From Halobacteriovoraceae bacterium (lineage in GTDB: Bacteria; Bdellovibrionota; Bacteriovoracia; Bacteriovoracales; Bacteriovoracaceae), in NCBI GenBank assembly GCA_002712005.1, contig PASP01000014.1, positions 1-64,000 on the forward strand: a stretch of DNA of 64,000 nt, in the 5' to 3' direction. The number at the start of each line of letters is the position of its first letter. Position 1 is the first letter of the stretch. The notes beneath the pieces were generated by a model. The model did no database searches. It worked only from the letters and a program-made list of their open reading frames with translations, and had not been told where the DNA came from. The translations under genes and the position numbers were made by a program. Shown here one piece after another: positions 44,587-57,257 of this stretch.

Positions 44587-45627
<1,041 letters not shown>

Positions 45628-48562: not shown

Positions 48563-49468
48563 ATGTTAATGTATGCCGCCTTGGCCTTAGTGGGAATTGC
48601 TGTCTTTTTGGTAACGAGTTTAGTTACCCAGGAAGAAGATGAATATAAGGCCCAAGAAAAACTAGAGTCTGGTGCAGGTACAGATAAAGAAACTTTAGCC
48701 CAGCACGGAATCGTTCTTAGGTATTCACGACCCTTCTTTCGTCGTTACGTAACTCCTATTGTCCAAAGTTTAAAAAATAAAAAGAAGATCAGGGAGAAGT
48801 ATAAGAGAAATCTTGCAGCAGCAGGATTAACAGATGTATTAACTCCTGAAGACTTTTTTAGTTTCAAATTATTCTTGATTATAGGTTTTCCTATTATCTT
48901 TTTAGCTCTTCGTGCTTTCTTAGAAGAGACTTGGCCATTTAATTACATGATCTTTATTTCCATCTTCGGATTCTTTTATCCTGATTTGTGGATGAAAGGG
49001 AAAATTCAACAGCGGCAAGCAGAGGTTATGAGAAATATGCCTTTTGCTGTCGATATGCTGGCACTAAGTGTGGAAGCAGGACTTGATTTTATTGCAGCGA
49101 TGGCAAAAGTGAATGAAAAAGCCAGACCGTCAGCACTTACAAAAGAATTTGAAATTTTAATGAAAGAAATCAAAATTGGGGCAACCAGAGCAGAGGCATT
49201 AAGAAATATGGCCTGGAGAATTGACTTGATTCAAATCTCATCTTTTTGTGCGACTTTGATTGCTGCAGACTCTGTTGGGGCAAGTATTGGTCCAATTCTA
49301 AAAGCCCTAAGTGCAGAAATCCGACAGAAGCGATCATCCGACGTTGAGAAAGCTGGGGCAACAGCCGCAACAAAGATTCTCTTTCCAATGCTTTTTCTAA
49401 TTGTTCCGGCTGTATTTATTATTGTTGCAGCTCCTCTCGTTTTAGAAGCATTAATGGGGAATAAGTAG
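48563..49468 (+). CDS. TadC-like type II/Tad secretion membrane protein
   Basis: A 301-aa type II secretion F-domain protein. TM segments: residues ~1-18 (MLMYAALALVGIAVFLVTS), a pair around 110-150, and a C-terminal one (LFPMLFLIVPAVFIIVAAPLVL). The core has FAVDMLALSVEAGLDFIAAMAKVNEKARPSALTKEFEILMKEIKIGATRAEALRNMAWRID, typical of TadC. With TadB it forms the inner-membrane platform of Tad/Flp pilus systems; TadB, the ATPase and the pilin are not in the window. I choose the ATG at 48563, with GGGGAG 10 nt upstream; the ATG at 48545 has no SD. Adjacent genes suggest regulation through FHA proteins. Confidence 0.82.
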   Translation: MLMYAALALVGIAVFLVTSLVTQEEDEYKAQEKLESGAGTDKETLAQHGIVLRYSRPFFRRYVTPIVQSLKNKKKIREKYKRNLAAAGLTDVLTPEDFFSFKLFLIIGFPIIFLALRAFLEETWPFNYMIFISIFGFFYPDLWMKGKIQQRQAEVMRNMPFAVDMLALSVEAGLDFIAAMAKVNEKARPSALTKEFEILMKEIKIGATRAEALRNMAWRIDLIQISSFCATLIAADSVGASIGPILKALSAEIRQKRSSDVEKAGATAATKILFPMLFLIVPAVFIIVAAPLVLEALMGNK

Positions 49469-49818
49469 TGGTTAAGAAATATATCGAAATAAAAAAAGAT
49501 AACTTAGTCGTAGCAAGTCAGGTTGAAATAGCTGATAACCCAATATCTAGAATGATAGGACTTATGTTTTCTAAGAATTTAGGTGAGAGAGACGGGTTGC
49601 TTATCTCTCCTTGTAATTCGATTCATACTTTTTTTATGAGATATGAACTAGATATTGTTTTTTTAAGTAGAGATAACAAAATTGTAAAAATAATAAGAAA
49701 GATGAAACCTTGGCGAATGACGTGGATGTATTTTAGGGCTGCCAAGGTCTTAGAGATGATGGGGGGAACTCTACCAGCTGAAGTTGAAGCTGGAGATGAG
49801 TTGAATATAAATGTATAA
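49468..49818 (+). CDS. DUF192 family protein
   Basis: A 116-aa protein of the DUF192 family: RMIGLMFSKNLGERDGLLISPCNSIHTFFMRYELDIVFLSRDNKIV and LEMMGGTLPAEVEAGDEL. Many relatives have signal peptides; this one starts directly in the fold and is probably cytoplasmic. Biochemical role unknown. The GTG start overlaps the tadC-like stop by one base, and its end overlaps the next gene by 8 nt, so it is part of the same operon. Confidence 0.88.
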   Translation: MVKKYIEIKKDNLVVASQVEIADNPISRMIGLMFSKNLGERDGLLISPCNSIHTFFMRYELDIVFLSRDNKIVKIIRKMKPWRMTWMYFRAAKVLEMMGGTLPAEVEAGDELNINV

Positions 49819-51370
49819 ATTAGTTGTCGTTGCAGGAAAATTAAGAGGACAAGAATATATTCTAGAAAATGGAGAGAATACTCTTGGACGTGATTCAAGT
49901 TGTTCGATTCATTTTCCTGTTCAGGGTGTATCTAAAAAACATTTCTCCATAACGGTTAGTGGAGATACTTGTTATATAGCTGATCTTGGCAGTTCAAATG
50001 GTACCTTTGTTAATGGGAAAGCAATTAAGCGAGCTACCGTTCAGAATAAAGATAAGATTGCTCTTCCTGATTCAATTCTTCAGGTAGTCTATGTAGAAGA
50101 AAAGAAAGTAATTATCAAAAAGCGGGTCAATAATGATGAAGAAGATGATAGCGACTTCATGGATCCGGGTACGCCTCCGAGTAATATAATTTCAAAGGTA
50201 TTTTGGAGCTTTAAGCATAAAGTGATGCCTATTCTTCATGGAATTAATGAAGAATATGAATGGCAGCATCTTTTGGCCATTTTAGTGGCTTTGTTTTCAG
50301 TAGCTGCAATTTCTCTTACGATTTTTCCGGCATTACAAGATGCAAAGAAGATACTTCTTAATGAGACAGCAACTCGAGGAAGTAGTTATGCTGATATGGT
50401 GGCACGAATGAATAACCGTGCCCTTGAACAAAGAAGATTGGAGAAAATCGATACCGACTTTATTAGTAAAGCCGATGGTGTTGCTGAATACAGATTGTTT
50501 GATATGAACGGGATTATTTTAAGACCGTTGGCACAATCAAATAAGTATGTGAGTGACCCATTCTTTATTATGGCGTGGGAGTGGGCTAAAGAGACTCGAG
50601 AAAAGAAAGATATAGTACTTAAAAAACTCTTAGATGATGGAACGATTGGTATTGCTAAGAAGATTACTTCTTTTAATCCAAAAACCGCGCGAGAAGAATC
50701 AGTTGGGGTTATTGCAATTAAGTTTGAACCGGCTTCTTTAAAAGTTGAGGCTGCAAAGTCGAGAAAGGCCTACCTTGAAGCACTTGTGACGACTGCTCTA
50801 GTGGCCATCTTCTTCTTTGGGTTTGTGTATTATTTAACGGTACGACCTCTTGAAGAGATCAATTTTCAAATTGAAGAAGCACTGAGAGGAAAACGGAAGA
50901 ATCTTGATAGCCGTTTCCTTTTTCAAGAGTTAAAGCCGCTGAGGAATTCTATAAATGCACTCTTAGCACGTATTAGAGAGTTAAATAATGAGGATGATGA
51001 TGATTTTGCTGAAGAAGAAAGTGATGAAAGTTATGTGAGACAACTCTATGAATTCATGCAAGGAGCAAATGGGCCGACCATGATTTTAGATTCCCATAAG
51101 AATCTTTCGCATATCAATATGGAGGCAGAAGATCTCACCGGGATGAGGGAGACCGCAAGTCAAGGAATGAGCTTACTTGATGTTTCAAGAGAGCAAGGGT
51201 TCGCAGCAACAGTGATTGAATTATGTGATGCAAGTGCAAATAATATGGGAACTAATCAGCAAGGTGAATATGATCTTGGAGGGGTTACGCACACGATTCA
51301 TGTGTCTTCACTGATAGGTAAAGATAATTTTGCAAAATCATTTTATATAACATTTGTGAGAGTTGATTAA
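49811..51370 (+). CDS. Membrane receptor: FHA, two TM, HAMP-like, PAS
   Basis: A 519-aa protein with an N-terminal FHA phosphothreonine-binding domain (about 1-100: TLGRDSSCSIHF, VSKKHF, DLGSSNGTFVNG). A linker with acidic residues follows, then TM1 (152-173) and an extracytoplasmic segment of ~150 residues (174-323). TM2 (324-343), a HAMP-like linker starting VRPLEEINFQIEEAL, and a C-terminal PAS domain (about 408-519: NGPTMILDSHKNLSHINMEAEDLTGM) complete it. It looks like a sensor that has no kinase, cyclase or methyl-accepting output of its own; signals would pass through FHA-phosphothreonine contacts. Coupled by 8-nt overlap to DUF192. Confidence 0.82.
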   Translation: MYKLVVVAGKLRGQEYILENGENTLGRDSSCSIHFPVQGVSKKHFSITVSGDTCYIADLGSSNGTFVNGKAIKRATVQNKDKIALPDSILQVVYVEEKKVIIKKRVNNDEEDDSDFMDPGTPPSNIISKVFWSFKHKVMPILHGINEEYEWQHLLAILVALFSVAAISLTIFPALQDAKKILLNETATRGSSYADMVARMNNRALEQRRLEKIDTDFISKADGVAEYRLFDMNGIILRPLAQSNKYVSDPFFIMAWEWAKETREKKDIVLKKLLDDGTIGIAKKITSFNPKTAREESVGVIAIKFEPASLKVEAAKSRKAYLEALVTTALVAIFFFGFVYYLTVRPLEEINFQIEEALRGKRKNLDSRFLFQELKPLRNSINALLARIRELNNEDDDDFAEEESDESYVRQLYEFMQGANGPTMILDSHKNLSHINMEAEDLTGMRETASQGMSLLDVSREQGFAATVIELCDASANNMGTNQQGEYDLGGVTHTIHVSSLIGKDNFAKSFYITFVRVD

Positions 51371-51375
51371 AGAAT

Positions 51376-52395
51376 ATGGTAGATAAGGCTTCAGCAGTAA
51401 AGATTGTAAAAGGTATAAAAACTCCGAAGGAGCCAGGGGTATACCACCGTCTACTTTGTATGACAGGACGAAATAAAGGGATGTCCTATTATATAAAGAG
51501 TCGAAGAATTGTTATGGGGAGATCTGAAACAGCTGATGTTCAGATTTTAGATGGGAAGTCATCCCGTGAACATGCTGAGCTTACATTAGTTGGTGGAAAG
51601 TATGTATTAACTGATCTAGGTAGTCAGAATGGTGTAATTGTAAATGACCTCAAAGTCAGTCAGCACACCTTAACGGATAATGATAAAATTATTATAGGGC
51701 AGACAGTATATAAGTATAATCGCGTTGAAGTTTCTGAAACCGAATTAATACCAGTTGATGAAGACGATGAGTACGAAGATGAAGACGAAGATGAGAGTGA
51801 AGAACTAGAAAGCGATAAGAAAGAGAAGAAGTCCAAAAAGAATAAGAATAAAGATCCAAAGAAAAAGAATAATATGATGATCATTCTTATTGTTGTTCTT
51901 GCAGCTGTCTTTTTAATTCCTTCAGAAGAGGAAGGAGGAAAGAAGAAAACTCGAAAAGGTAAGACAGTCGGAGATATTGCTCCAGACCAGATTAACATAG
52001 CAGAATATAATGAAGAGGAAATCTCTGACCCAGATGTTAGAAAGAAGTTGGAAGCTTATCTTCATCGAGGGCAGAGAGAGTATAGAGAAGGGAACTTTTA
52101 TAGGGCCATTGAACAATTCGAATTAGCCCTTATTTTGGTGCCCAATCATGGATATGCCACATTTTATAGGCAAAGAGCGGAAGAGAGTTTGAATAAATTT
52201 GTCGATAAGATTGTGGCTAAGGCAGAAAATGATATTGCAGCTCTAAGATACCGTTCAGCCGTTATACAATATTGTTCAGTGATAACTTTTTTGCAAGATA
52301 ATCCAAAACATCCAAAGTATGTAGAGGCAGAAAAGAAAATAGCTGAGCTTGAAGTCAAAATGGGAGTAGATGAAGGTGAATTTAAATGTTTCTAG
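51376..52395 (+). CDS. FHA-TM-TPR protein
   Basis: A 339-aa protein: FHA domain at about residues 22-117 (IVMGRSETADVQILD, SSREHAEL, DLGSQNGVIVN), an acidic run (128-147) and a Lys-rich run (149-165). One TM segment (MMIILIVVLAAVFLIP, 167-182) is followed by TPR-like helices (about 215-335: REGNFYRAIEQFELALILVPNHGYA). With FHA inside and TPR outside, it could link a phosphothreonine signal to a periplasmic assembly. Its end overlaps the next gene by 26 nt. Confidence 0.82.
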   Translation: MVDKASAVKIVKGIKTPKEPGVYHRLLCMTGRNKGMSYYIKSRRIVMGRSETADVQILDGKSSREHAELTLVGGKYVLTDLGSQNGVIVNDLKVSQHTLTDNDKIIIGQTVYKYNRVEVSETELIPVDEDDEYEDEDEDESEELESDKKEKKSKKNKNKDPKKKNNMMIILIVVLAAVFLIPSEEEGGKKKTRKGKTVGDIAPDQINIAEYNEEEISDPDVRKKLEAYLHRGQREYREGNFYRAIEQFELALILVPNHGYATFYRQRAEESLNKFVDKIVAKAENDIAALRYRSAVIQYCSVITFLQDNPKHPKYVEAEKKIAELEVKMGVDEGEFKCF

Positions 52396-54745
52396 AGATA
52401 ATGAGTCTCTATATCAAATAAATTTTACCCAAGAGATTGAGGATAATAATGGTGCTCCCCTGACATTCTTTGTCGGAAGGGGGGGCGATTGCCAAGTCCA
52501 ACTTGATGATAAGCAAGTATCCAGAGAGCACGCACGAATTAAATTTGAACATGGCGACTGGTCCATCGAAAAGGTTTCCTCTTTTAATACCATTAGTTTG
52601 AATGGATCGTTTTGTGAAACAGCTAAATTAAAAAATGGTGATCTCATCACCATAGGTCCCTTTACATTAAATGTAGAGTTAGATGAAAGTGTTGTTATTG
52701 AGCCTGAATCTGTAGAGGAAGATCCTAAAGATCAAGATAATGAAGAGGGAGCTGCAACTGCTTCTGGGATTGATGTTGGCCTTGGTAGTGATGAGGCTAC
52801 GGAAATATTGAGTTCAGAGCAGGCTGAAGAGCTAAATGAGCCTGCTCATGAAAGTGAGGATACAGATGATCTTGAAGACAATCAAGATCTTGATAATGGT
52901 GAGTTTTCAGACCAAGAGATTCAAGACTCACCTTCCGATTATCAAGCCTTTGATGATAATGCTACTTCAGAGTTTGATAGCTTAGAACAGCCGGCTGAAA
53001 ATGATGATAACTTTTCTGTAGACGGAGATGATGGCTTCTCTGATGATGATTTTTCAAATGATCTAGGTGATGGTGAGTCGGATGGCTTTAATGATGAATT
53101 CATGGATTCAGATATGGATGAGTCTTATGACATGGAAGCTTATGACGATGATGAAAAAACACAGGTTATAAAATCATTTGCTTCTTTCTCTTTGGAACTT
53201 TTTGGAGAGTATGCGCCGTATGATAAGTTCGTCATAGAAAAGCCCGAAACATTTATTGGACGTGACCCTGAGAAGTGCGACATTGTTCTTAATGACCCTG
53301 AAGTTTCAGGTGTCCACGCTGTAATTAAGAAAAATGCAATTACTTGTACATTAGAAGACTTAAAATCCGCCAATGGAACCATTTTAAATGGTGAAAGAGT
53401 AAATTCTCACGATTTAACAAGTGAAGACGAATTCATTATTGGTGGAACAACTTTTACCGTCAAAATTCAATCAGACTTTCTTCAGCAAGAACAATCTAGA
53501 ATTATGCCTGTAGAGGATAATCAAGTTGTTGAAGTTGAAGAGATTGTTGAGGTAGATGAGAATTTTGATGGTGACTTCGATGATCAAGATGGTGAAATTA
53601 TTGAAGGGGGTCAGGACTTTGGTGGAGGTTTTGAAGAAAAGAATTCTTCATTATTCAGTAAAGATGCACTTAAAGATCCTGAGAAAAGAAAGAAAATACT
53701 TTATATATTAGTTGGTCTCATGGCCCTATGGGTTTTACTTGAGGAAGAGGAGCCTAAGAAACCAAAGATTGATCCTAAAGCTAAGGAAGCAGCTGAAGCA
53801 AAGCAGAATCAAAAAGTTGTTCCAGAGGCAGAAAAGCAACTCACACCTGAACAACAAGAGTTTGTAGAGGGACAGTATTTATTGGCCAGTCAATATTTTG
53901 CTGAGAAGAAATATTCTGAAACAATCATGGAGCTGGATAAAATCTTTGCTATCACAAAAGAATATAAGAATGCACGAACACTTTATGGATTAGCAAAAGA
54001 AGGATTGGCCGAATTAACTAAGCTTCTTGAAGAAGAACGTAAAGAAAAAGAGCGTAAGCTACGAGATCTAAAAGTTAGAGAGCTTTTAGAAAAAGCTGAA
54101 GCAGCTGTTAAAGAAAAGAAAATGGATTTTGCTAAAAATTTATTTAAAGAGATTACGAGGCTAGATCCTGAAAACTTTGATGTGACTCGATTAAAGCTAG
54201 AGGTTGAAGCATATGAAAAAGAAATCGAGAGAAAACGTGTAGAGAAAGCTCAGAAAGAAGCTGAACGAAAACGACAGGTTCAAGAGTTGGCACCAGGGAA
54301 GTCGTTTTATCAGCGTAAAGATTGGTACAAGGCCAAACTGAAATTACAAGACTTTTTACGTCTAAAAGGAATGGATGAGGATCTCGTTAAGGATGCAACT
54401 CGAATGTTGGAAGAGTCGACTCGTAAGTTAGATAGTATTGTGAACCCCCTTCTTGGAAAGGCGAGATCTCTTAAAGAGGGGCAAGACCTTAAGGGAGCTT
54501 ACGAACTCTATCTTGAAATTTTAAAGTATAATCCTGCTCATGTTGAATCTCTAAATGAAATGGATGAAATTAGAGAACGCTTAGAGTTAAGAAGTAAAAA
54601 GGTTTATCGTGAAGCGATCATTGCTGAATCACTTTCCCTATATGATGATGCAAAAGAGAAGTTTCAAGAAGTACAGCAGATTAGCCCTACAGATAGCGAC
54701 TACTATAAAAAAGCTACGGAAAAGCTAAAAGATTATCTAGATTAG
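52370..54745 (+). CDS. Double FHA-TM-TPR protein
   Basis: A 791-aa protein. FHA-1 (about 30-104: FVGRGGDCQVQLDD, VSREHARI, SFNTISLNG) has a degenerate final motif. An acidic, Asp/Glu/Ser-rich spacer of ~155 residues follows. FHA-2 (about 270-372: FIGRDPEKCDIVLNDPEVSGVHAVI, SANGTILNG), another acidic stretch, one TM segment (ILYILVGLMALWVLL, about 445-460), and a long TPR region to the end (QYFAEKKYSETIMELDKIF, KNLFKEITRLDPENF, GAYELYLEILKYNPAH) complete it. The layout is that of the preceding gene with a second FHA added, suggesting duplication. The SD GGGAG is within the upstream gene. Confidence 0.85.
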   Translation: MKVNLNVSRDNESLYQINFTQEIEDNNGAPLTFFVGRGGDCQVQLDDKQVSREHARIKFEHGDWSIEKVSSFNTISLNGSFCETAKLKNGDLITIGPFTLNVELDESVVIEPESVEEDPKDQDNEEGAATASGIDVGLGSDEATEILSSEQAEELNEPAHESEDTDDLEDNQDLDNGEFSDQEIQDSPSDYQAFDDNATSEFDSLEQPAENDDNFSVDGDDGFSDDDFSNDLGDGESDGFNDEFMDSDMDESYDMEAYDDDEKTQVIKSFASFSLELFGEYAPYDKFVIEKPETFIGRDPEKCDIVLNDPEVSGVHAVIKKNAITCTLEDLKSANGTILNGERVNSHDLTSEDEFIIGGTTFTVKIQSDFLQQEQSRIMPVEDNQVVEVEEIVEVDENFDGDFDDQDGEIIEGGQDFGGGFEEKNSSLFSKDALKDPEKRKKILYILVGLMALWVLLEEEEPKKPKIDPKAKEAAEAKQNQKVVPEAEKQLTPEQQEFVEGQYLLASQYFAEKKYSETIMELDKIFAITKEYKNARTLYGLAKEGLAELTKLLEEERKEKERKLRDLKVRELLEKAEAAVKEKKMDFAKNLFKEITRLDPENFDVTRLKLEVEAYEKEIERKRVEKAQKEAERKRQVQELAPGKSFYQRKDWYKAKLKLQDFLRLKGMDEDLVKDATRMLEESTRKLDSIVNPLLGKARSLKEGQDLKGAYELYLEILKYNPAHVESLNEMDEIRERLELRSKKVYREAIIAESLSLYDDAKEKFQEVQQISPTDSDYYKKATEKLKDYLD

Positions 54746-54753
54746 GAAGATAA

Positions 54754-55494
54754 ATGATAGATTTAAAAAGTTATGCTTCTCGCACTGATAAAGGCCCCTA
54801 TCTTCAAATAAATGAGGATAATGTTGAAGTTGATCTCGTGAATAAGCTCTATATGTTATTTGATAGTTTTGGAGGCTCTTCTGTTGGAGATAAAGCCGTT
54901 TTTTTAGTTTTAGATACAATTAAGAAATTCTATACTCGGATAGCTGGGGATCCTGAAGCAACACTTCCATTTTTTTATAGCCCTAAATATCTTCTTGAGG
55001 GAAATGCTCTCATCAATGCAATGGAGTATGCTCATTTTCTTCTCAAAAAAGAAAATAAAGATAAAGAAATGGACTCAAAGGGGGGAGCCTCTTGTATAGC
55101 TATTTCTCAAGCTGAAAATATATTAACTCTCGCTGCTACTGGAAATTGTTTGGGCCTAATTTACAGTAAGGGAAATATGAAGGTCATTTCTAATCCGGAT
55201 AACTTTGAATTCATTAGTGGAGATTTCTACGATAAAGAATTTGTTACTGCACCTGCATCTGGTTTTGGTCTCTTTAATGATCTTCACTTGAATATATCAG
55301 AGGTGCGAGTCAACAGTGGTGATCGAATTCTATTATTGAGTGATGGTGTTTACGCAAGAGTAAATCATAAAGAGATAAAAGACATAATCTTATCAGAAGG
55401 AACAAAATCATCTGATAAAATTGATATGTTATTTGATCTTGCGAATAAAAGAGGGAATATGGATAACCAGTCAGCCCTTCTTTTGAATTTTTAG
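54754..55494 (+). CDS. PP2C-type serine/threonine phosphatase
   Basis: A 246-aa PPM/PP2C-fold protein. Metal-binding acids appear conserved: NEDN (Glu21, Asp22), FDSFGG (Asp37, in place of the usual DGHGG), LLSDGVY (Asp197) and NMDNQSAL (Asp237). The GGAS element (110-113) is there; the usual GDSR is changed to GNCL. So the fold and metal site look usable, with altered surrounding loops. As the last gene of the operon it would be the eraser for phosphothreonines read by the four FHA domains upstream. A Ser/Thr kinase is not found in the window. Confidence 0.8.
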   Translation: MIDLKSYASRTDKGPYLQINEDNVEVDLVNKLYMLFDSFGGSSVGDKAVFLVLDTIKKFYTRIAGDPEATLPFFYSPKYLLEGNALINAMEYAHFLLKKENKDKEMDSKGGASCIAISQAENILTLAATGNCLGLIYSKGNMKVISNPDNFEFISGDFYDKEFVTAPASGFGLFNDLHLNISEVRVNSGDRILLLSDGVYARVNHKEIKDIILSEGTKSSDKIDMLFDLANKRGNMDNQSALLLNF

Positions 55495-55604: not shown

Positions 55605-57257
55605 ATGGAAAATAAAATATTAGTCGCAGATGACAGTCCCACAATTCAAAAAGTAATTAGTATCACTTTAGCGAATAAAGATTATATTCTTGATTCTGCT
55701 CATAGTGAACAAGAGCTTTTAGAAAAAGTTGGTACTCATGATTATCAACTCGTTTTACTCGATTATAATCTTTCAGAAACAGCGACAGGCCTTGATCTTA
55801 CTAAACAGATTAAAAAAGATAATCCGAATATTCATATTATGGCCATGCTTGGAACCTTTGATAGCGTGGATGATAATGAGTTAGAGGATGCTGGTTTCTC
55901 AGATAAGATTGTTAAGCCTTTTGAAAGCTCGAAGTTCATTCAAAAAATAGAAAATATATTTGTTTCATCACCACAGTCAGATATTGATATGGATGAAGAT
56001 ATTTTCTCTGAAGCTGATGAAGATCATTCAGGTGAAGAAGAAAATGAAGACTCTTTTGATAGTGATGAATGGAGCATGGCCGCTCCAGATGTTATCAATG
56101 ACAATGAAGAAGAGTCCGTTGGAATTGAAGATCTTCAAGAGGTCGACAATAAAAATCCTCTCAGGCAAGAAATGGCCGGCTGGGGGATGAGTGTTCCTGA
56201 GGTTATTGGGGCATCATCCTCACATGAGGATGAGGAAAGTACTCTTTTCCCACCTTCTATTGAAGGTTCAGATGAAGAGATTGATGAACTTGTTGCTGGG
56301 CCATCCTTAGAGTCAAGTGAGCAAATTTCTTTTGATGATTCTGATCTCCTTTCAGATGAAAATGATGATGATATTGAAGACGAAAATAGAGATGAAGAAG
56401 GTGATATTAACAGTGAAGACCTGACACAAGAGATCACTTTACCGGCGGATTTTTCTGAAAATGAAGTTGAAGGTGAAGAACAAAGTCTTCCCGACTCTGA
56501 AGACCTCGATTATCCAAGTCTAAGCTTAGAGGATGAAAAAGAAGACGAAACAGCAGAAGACACAGATAGACAGCCTCAACTCACTTCTCTAGATGAATTA
56601 GATATGGATGATGATTACTCCGATGATGAAGATCTAGATGCAACTGATCCTCAGCTTATTATCGGACCTAGTGAAGATAGTCCTGACTTAATCAATTCAA
56701 TAAATGATGATATCTCACCAGATGAATTTTGGGCAGCAGATGTAGAAGACTCAAGTGGCGAATCTGTAAGTGAAGAGATCGAAGATGGTGAATCTGATGC
56801 AGAACTTCTGAGCTTGGGAGAAGAAGATGAAGAAGATTATGAAATTTCAGCGCATACTCCAATAAGTGAAGAACCAAAAACTACTGAACTTGATGAGAGC
56901 TCAAGAGCGACCTTAGATGCTTTAAGCAACCTTAACGAAATCGGTCCAAAATTAGAAAGCGAAGAAAGAGAAGTTGGACCAAAACTTGAAGTCGAGTCCC
57001 GTGAAGTTGGGCCTAAGTTAGAAAAGGTCGATAGAGACTCACTCGCTCAACAAATTAAGACTGAAATTCTCAATGAGCTCAAGCCTCTTATAAAAGAGAT
57101 TGTTCAAGAGAGTGTCAAAGAAGCCCTGCAAGAGTCAAATACTACAACAGCAGAAAAAGTAGCTTGGGAGATTATTCCTGATCTTGCAGAGAATCTTATT
57201 AGGAAAGAAGTTAAAGAGGTTTCTCAAAAAGTGATGAGTAAACATTCGCTTAACTAG
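55605..57257 (+). CDS. Receiver-domain protein with long acidic tail (RomR-like layout)
   Basis: A 550-aa protein. The N-terminal CheY-like receiver (about 3-120) has the acidic pair DD at 9-10, phospho-acceptor Asp53 (LVLLDYNLS) and the conserved Lys104 (KIVKPF). Then ~320 residues very rich in Glu, Asp and Ser, a triple repeat of GPKLE (about 446-470), and a C-terminal helix region ending AWEIIPDLAENLIRKEVKEVSQKV, a motif I associate with deltaproteobacterial receiver proteins. The receiver plus disordered acidic tail resembles RomR, the polarity hub of myxobacteria and Bdellovibrio; orthology is unproven. It has no DNA-binding or enzyme output. Its 3' end overlaps convergent birA by 8 nt. 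Confidence 0.75.
   Translation: MENKILVADDSPTIQKVISITLANKDYILDSAHSEQELLEKVGTHDYQLVLLDYNLSETATGLDLTKQIKKDNPNIHIMAMLGTFDSVDDNELEDAGFSDKIVKPFESSKFIQKIENIFVSSPQSDIDMDEDIFSEADEDHSGEEENEDSFDSDEWSMAAPDVINDNEEESVGIEDLQEVDNKNPLRQEMAGWGMSVPEVIGASSSHEDEESTLFPPSIEGSDEEIDELVAGPSLESSEQISFDDSDLLSDENDDDIEDENRDEEGDINSEDLTQEITLPADFSENEVEGEEQSLPDSEDLDYPSLSLEDEKEDETAEDTDRQPQLTSLDELDMDDDYSDDEDLDATDPQLIIGPSEDSPDLINSINDDISPDEFWAADVEDSSGESVSEEIEDGESDAELLSLGEEDEEDYEISAHTPISEEPKTTELDESSRATLDALSNLNEIGPKLESEEREVGPKLEVESREVGPKLEKVDRDSLAQQIKTEILNELKPLIKEIVQESVKEALQESNTTTAEKVAWEIIPDLAENLIRKEVKEVSQKVMSKHSLN

Follow-up and report, generated by a model that had tools for sequence, protein, structure and literature searches.

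How predatory bacteria convert contact with prey into pilus assembly and killing is the question raised by a block of six genes in a Halobacteriovoraceae bacterium. The block occupies positions 48,563-55,494 of the 64,000-nucleotide stretch that we analysed (GenBank assembly GCA_002712005.1, contig PASP01000014.1, positions 1 to 64,000 of the forward strand; hereafter the window) and encodes the platform protein TadC of a Tad pilus, a DUF192 protein, three FHA proteins and a PP2C-fold phosphatase. An earlier note on this DNA had described it as a candidate phosphothreonine circuit attached to a Tad apparatus that may be re-purposed or split, and as a possible undescribed system. Here we show that the Tad apparatus is split between the window and another contig, and we consider it probable that the block combines half of the organism's single Tad (Kil-like) machine with a dedicated phosphothreonine signalling module.

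A Tad platform gene is followed by FHA and PP2C-type genes

The six open reading frames (ORFs) lie on the + strand, and neighbours overlap or sit at most 8 nt apart, in agreement with the arrangement described earlier. The first, tadC (48563-49468), encodes the inner-membrane platform protein of a Tad (type IVb) pilus (Pfam T2SSF, 1.9e-15); its ORF extends upstream to 48545, but in the alignment the start at 48563, chosen in the earlier note, agrees better with the homologues. The second gene (49468-49818; DUF192, 1.4e-20) has a GTG start and overlaps the tadC stop. It is followed by FHA1 (49811-51370; FHA, 4.9e-17), with its FHA domain encoded at 49880-50065, by FHA2 (51376-52395; FHA, 2.2e-15, and a weak TPR match), with the domain at 51508-51699, and by FHA3 (52370-54745; FHA, 5e-34), with two copies at 52472-52657 and 53252-53443. 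The phosphatase gene (54754-55494) closes the block at the position of Bd0475 in Bdellovibrio bacteriovorus. The Pfam matches bear out the assignment of TadC, DUF192 and three FHA proteins with four FHA domains. These four domains in 7 kb, of 11 in the 3.96-Mb genome, compare with an expectation of 0.02 (Poisson P ~6e-9). Neither the promoter nor the terminator scan clearly exceeded what shuffled sequences gave.

The remaining Tad genes lie on a second contig

The T2SSF proteins of the genome comprise two double-domain proteins of PilC/GspF type and two single-domain proteins, the window TadC and a TadB on contig C4. A search for unlinked tad genes, as the earlier note had proposed, led to the locus around this tadB, which runs on one strand through an A24 prepilin peptidase, a pilin-like gene, two TadE-like genes, CpaB, a secretin, a TadZ-TadA fusion and TadB, and then a YD-repeat protein. 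Pfam matches on this contig include Secretin (9.3e-15), RcpC (6.5e-24) and Peptidase_A24 (1.4e-7). The secretion ATPase TadA/CpaF is present (T2SSE, 6.3e-58; L007 10731-12968) and is fused to a CbiA/MinD-type (TadZ) domain (CbiA-T2SSE by Pfam). The pilin-like gene (L007 16422-16757) had no Pfam match; read by eye it shows GQSTVEYILLLVIV, to be compared with the G-x4-E-Y motif plus hydrophobic stretch of the Flp type. TadC was not found by Pfam in the C4 Tad locus, so the window gene is the only TadC of the genome. Since the other half of the apparatus sits on C4 and lacks tadC, the Tad system is split and not re-purposed. Among relatives in which a single contig holds both halves, hundreds of kb lie between them, as in G039 (TadC at C1:468687, TadB at C1:44449). 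We are nearly certain that the block and the C4 locus complement each other as the two halves of a Kil-like Tad machine, the only one that the organism has.

In nearly all the Tad loci that we saw across the phylum, the gene after tadB encodes a YD-repeat (RHS) protein, which occupies the place of Bd0109 (L007 8130-9755 on contig C4; L092-L098, L104, L106 and L108) and is a candidate Tad accessory outside the cytoplasm. In a genome of family f4, TadA and TadB are fused in one protein of 917 residues (T2SSE plus T2SSF; L097 13125-15878).

The block is conserved across Bdellovibrionota and ancestrally adjoined the Tad locus

To follow the distribution of the block, we sampled 97 genomes across the phylum Bdellovibrionota (the family of the window is f1), in which the window, judged by the nearest named relatives of its TadC, groups with Bacteriovorax and Halobacteriovorax. 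A TadC orthologue and FHA1 occur together in 96 of the 97. The sole exception, G029, lacks both and retains TadB, TadZA, secretin, CpaB and the YD-repeat gene; of its five T2SSF domains, four belong to PilC/GspF-type proteins and one to TadB. This joint loss is what co-function predicts, and it is one event only. The order tadC-DUF192-FHA1-FHA2-FHA3 is constant in the families examined, with the DUF192 gene in second position throughout, except that the third FHA gene of family f9 scores best against FHA2; FHA1 matches in this family are weak, and position was checked in G017 and G025 only. The complete six-gene arrangement was found in at least 61 of the 80 named loci of the window's order, and many of the others are interrupted by contig ends. 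The earlier note had named as grounds against its proposal a conventional Tad locus elsewhere, complete with a tadC of its own, and FHA genes that are not co-conserved; this is not what we found.

In 12 loci from families f4, f8, f12, f15, f17 and f19, the rest of the Tad genes come directly after the block, namely pilin, TadE, CpaB, CpaC and TadZA and, in stretches of sufficient length, also TadB and the YD-repeat gene. In family f9 the block and these genes are separated by a few others. Because the block directly precedes the remaining Tad genes in six other families, the ancestral state is a single Tad locus that included the block, and the split is derived and later.

The FHA proteins retain the residues of phosphothreonine readers

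FHA1 is a sensor-type protein with a cytoplasmic FHA domain, a transmembrane segment, an extracytoplasmic alpha/beta domain, a second transmembrane segment, a HAMP-like helix and a PAS domain; among its orthologues, Pfam detects FHA in 69/69 and PAS in 38/69. The AlphaFold2 model matches WalK, its non-FHA part resembling a WalK-type sensor, and its FHA domain superposes on phosphopeptide-binding FHA domains, including that of Bdellovibrio DgcB. The structure search was dominated by the FHA domain and a sequence search of the PDB with the extracytoplasmic domain returned chance matches only, so the fold of this domain is taken solely from the WalK match of the whole model. FHA2 has a cytoplasmic FHA domain, one transmembrane segment and a TPR-containing C-terminal part predicted to lie outside the cytoplasm. 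FHA3 has two FHA domains, acidic linkers, a short hydrophobic segment and a TPR-like C-terminal part, and shares position and architecture with Bd0474. All three had been called membrane proteins, which agrees with the transmembrane segments of FHA1 and FHA2, whereas the hydrophobic segment of FHA3 (about 16 residues) is under the 19-residue cut-off and its insertion is therefore less certain.

In the window, FHA1, FHA2 and both FHA3 domains (FHA3a and FHA3b) carry the Arg, Ser, His and Asn of the phosphothreonine site. The contact residues of FHA1 (G-R, S, R/K, H and N-G) are kept in 38 of 40 sequences, with the Arg replaced in two, and those of FHA2 are conserved among relatives save one Asn change. 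Judged from these alignments, the phosphothreonine pockets are conserved across families. Phosphothreonine control of the machine is likely.

The sixth gene has a PP2C fold and lacks the metal ligands in Bdellovibrio-type families

The phosphatase identity of the sixth gene, a weak Pfam match (2e-3, below the cut-off), was confirmed by an AlphaFold2 model built from 64 orthologues (predicted local distance difference test score 92.7, predicted template modelling score 0.90). Its best PDB matches in Foldseek were all PP2C phosphatases, with tPphA at 6e-18 and PppA, the phosphatase of the type VI secretion system (T6SS), at 7e-18 (TM-score 0.79/0.84). All four acidic metal ligands are present (D22, D37, D197 and D237); across the 64 sequences D22 and D37 are invariant, and D197 and D237 occur in at least 90%. 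The enzyme of the window's family looks catalytic. The PP2C-fold gene of this clade carries the signature D-x-ATLPF ... GN-x-L-x-N.

The PP2C fold of gene 6 was recognised in ten families, with all four ligands in 15/16 sequences of f1, 4/8 of f8, 1/2 of f13, 1/1 of f20 and 0/10 of the others sampled. In the Bdellovibrio-type families f6, f11 and f18, the gene at the same place has none of the PP2C ligands; the arrangement in G073 follows Bd0470-Bd0475 in gene order and approximate lengths. Pfam gave no match for the Bd0475-type protein, so profile-profile alignment was needed: an alignment of 15 Bdellovibrio-type sequences matched the PP2C alignment with 99% probability (E 5.8e-18, 204 columns), and 15 control comparisons all stayed below 2% probability. 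On its sequence, the Bd0475-type protein is a pseudophosphatase.

A Hanks-type kinase is the best candidate writer

Following the suggestion that an unlinked Ser/Thr kinase be sought, we found three Hanks-type kinases in the window genome. The 691-residue kinase on contig C7 has orthologues across the phylum, and in ten genomes that we checked PF00069 detected no other kinase. Should the block depend on a Hanks kinase as its writer, we infer that this is the best candidate. In the window genome, the C7 kinase has a DgcB-type FHA-GGDEF gene 3.6 kb away (L192 5331-6245 and 9814-11889).

In G008, G016 and G024, short FHA proteins and this kinase are 6-8 kb apart; such adjacency might mark a kinase that writes for DgcB. 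A short kinase gene on contig C16 (L194 1547-3064) adjoins a second PP2C gene and forms a separate kinase-phosphatase pair. A weak kinase match near the C4 Tad locus (C4:93548) was rejected, its sequence resembling the UbiB/ABC1 type and not a Hanks kinase.

Neighbouring genes

Downstream of the block, a response regulator gene on the + strand (55605-57257; Response_reg, 3.5e-18) encodes a REC domain, a long acidic linker and a C-terminal helix. It comes next after the PP2C gene in 14/15 other f1 loci, and its C-terminal helix looks conserved. Because no family but that of the window has this gene behind the block, the response regulator is an accessory at most. Upstream, an MreB-type ORF of 257 aa (44854-45627) aligns to profile positions 77-326 only and, as called, therefore lacks the N-terminal part.

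Relation to known systems

The block is not an undescribed system, because the orthologous operon Bd0470-Bd0475 of B. bacteriovorus has already been tied to predation, with phenotypes for Bd0470 and Bd0474 (PMC6561027, PMC12034629). A transposon in Bd0470 (tadC) abolished attachment and killing, and one in Bd0474, the counterpart of FHA3, left attachment and blocked killing and rounding (PMC6561027). In a two-hybrid test Bd0474 bound Bd0075, a TPR protein, a Bd0473-Bd0475 pairing was predicted by AlphaFold-Multimer (interface predicted template modelling score, ipTM, 0.60), and Bd0475 is listed as a hypothetical protein of 228 residues (PMC12034629). The operon shares with the window the order TadC, DUF192, FHA1, FHA2, FHA-FHA-TPR and PP2C-fold, and is likewise unlinked from the Tad locus bd0109-0119; it differs in its sixth gene, which lacks the PP2C metal ligands, all four of which are found in the window.

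FHA signalling had also been proposed earlier for Kil, a related system of Myxococcus xanthus with a Tad-like contact-killing pilus. The Kil machine assembles upon prey contact, an upstream FHA cascade like that of T6SS was suggested by the authors, and a supermatrix tree built from the ATPase, the platform proteins and CpaB puts Bdellovibrionales in the same clade as Kil (PMC8460266). Both Kil and the window genome have their Tad genes in two clusters and several FHA proteins, but KilF has an N-terminal FHA domain, whereas TadA here is fused to a MinD/TadZ-type domain and Pfam found no FHA match in this TadZ-TadA ATPase. The word phosphatase is absent from the main text of PMC8460266. Already known are thus, from Bdellovibrio, the operon and the fact that predation requires it and, from Myxococcus, split Tad loci rich in FHA proteins.

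The T6SS pathway PpkA-Fha-PppA resembles the block in placing an FHA reader and a PP2C eraser beside a contact-dependent surface machine, and its PppA is close to the window PP2C model; unlike that pathway, the block has no linked kinase and has several membrane FHA proteins in place of one Fha. A T6SS origin of the FHA/PP2C pair was rejected, since the sheath protein VipB/TssC was not matched in the window genome. DgcB, an FHA-GGDEF protein of Bdellovibrio, also exemplifies phosphothreonine-gated FHA control, in that case of prey invasion, by a kinase that may have several targets (PMC6733907), but its output is c-di-GMP rather than a pilus machine, and it is encoded elsewhere.

A phosphothreonine-gated Tad machine and its alternatives

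Of the proposed Tad machine with a dedicated signalling module, the sequences themselves show the set of genes and their conserved order, the ancestral contiguity of the block with the Tad locus, phosphothreonine pockets that are intact and a PP2C fold that has its ligands. In such a machine, TadC and the unlinked TadB would together form the inner-membrane platform, which the TadZ-TadA ATPase would drive. FHA1 may use its extracytoplasmic and PAS domains to sense a signal from the envelope or the state of the cell, and in FHA2 and FHA3 cytoplasmic domains that read phosphothreonine would be connected to TPR domains lying outside the cytoplasm. A Hanks-type kinase encoded elsewhere would phosphorylate at least one Tad or FHA protein, and FHA binding could then license the pilus machine to assemble or to fire where contact is made. 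The PP2C phosphatase would reset the machine, in lineages that keep an active PP2C. The trigger by prey contact is borrowed from M. xanthus Kil and would apply by analogy.

Several observations weigh against this scheme. As the earlier note had stated, no kinase lies in or near the block, and two incomplete f2 genomes gave no PF00069 kinase though they retain the block. In FHA3b the G, R, S and N are retained and the His is replaced in 9 of 39 sequences, and FHA3a has G-R-S-R-H in nearly all relatives with the Asn usually absent. The phosphatase is degenerate in most other families, dead in the Bdellovibrio type and not found in the f3, f7 and f9 loci, so erasing by gene 6 is not essential to the machine. 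Of the writer-reader-eraser logic proposed earlier, the FHA reader stands as strongly conserved, but the eraser is unsupported as a general rule.

The strongest alternative is that the FHA proteins are structural adaptors at the base of the Tad machine, in the manner of the cytoplasmic FHA-fold domain of SctD, a ring protein of type III secretion, with phosphorylation unneeded and the PP2C-fold protein an assembly partner. The block FHA domains do also match Yop-YscD_cpl in Pfam, the PP2C-fold protein keeps its place while losing ligands in many families and all of them in the Bd0475 type, and the predicted Bd0475-Bd0473 pairing (PMC12034629) fits an assembly role. However, the phosphothreonine-contact residues are kept phylum-wide in FHA1 and FHA2 and mostly in FHA3b, which a purely structural fold would not need, and the PP2C ligands are strongly conserved in the window's order; we regard this explanation as unlikely, though a serious competitor. 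Rather improbable is that the FHA and PP2C genes serve another phosphothreonine pathway, such as DgcB/c-di-GMP or envelope control, and merely travel with tadC. The proximity of the C7 kinase to the DgcB-type gene and the several targets open to such a kinase (PMC6733907) would suit it, but these genes are fixed between tadC and the remaining Tad genes in several families, and FHA1 and TadC are absent together in G029. A tadC that was decaying or had been re-purposed, with no working machine, would account for its distance from tadB and for a window otherwise free of Tad genes; this reading is very hard to reconcile with the complementary set on C4, the strong conservation of TadC (79-86% identity to its nearest named relatives, mostly Bacteriovoracaceae metagenome assemblies) and the same split in Bdellovibrio, whose tadC is needed for attachment (PMC6561027), and we give it hardly any weight.

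Implications for predation in Bdellovibrionota

As far as the open-licence literature shows, the phylum-wide fixed six-gene block and its ancestral contiguity with the Tad locus are new, as are the recognition of the sixth gene as a PP2C decayed to a pseudophosphatase in the Bdellovibrio type and the single-kinase argument. A bolder proposal, which we advance tentatively and hold to be less likely than not, is that the ancestor of the whole phylum already had a phosphothreonine-gated Tad machine, that a single core Hanks kinase is its writer, and that the sixth gene has repeatedly turned from an active PP2C eraser into a dead pseudophosphatase (Bd0475) that binds FHA proteins. If the signalling reading is true, the Tad locus itself contains the module that controls the machine, its readers can be named, it has one candidate writer and either an eraser or a pseudo-eraser, and the hypothetical protein Bd0475 gains a fold and a hypothesis.

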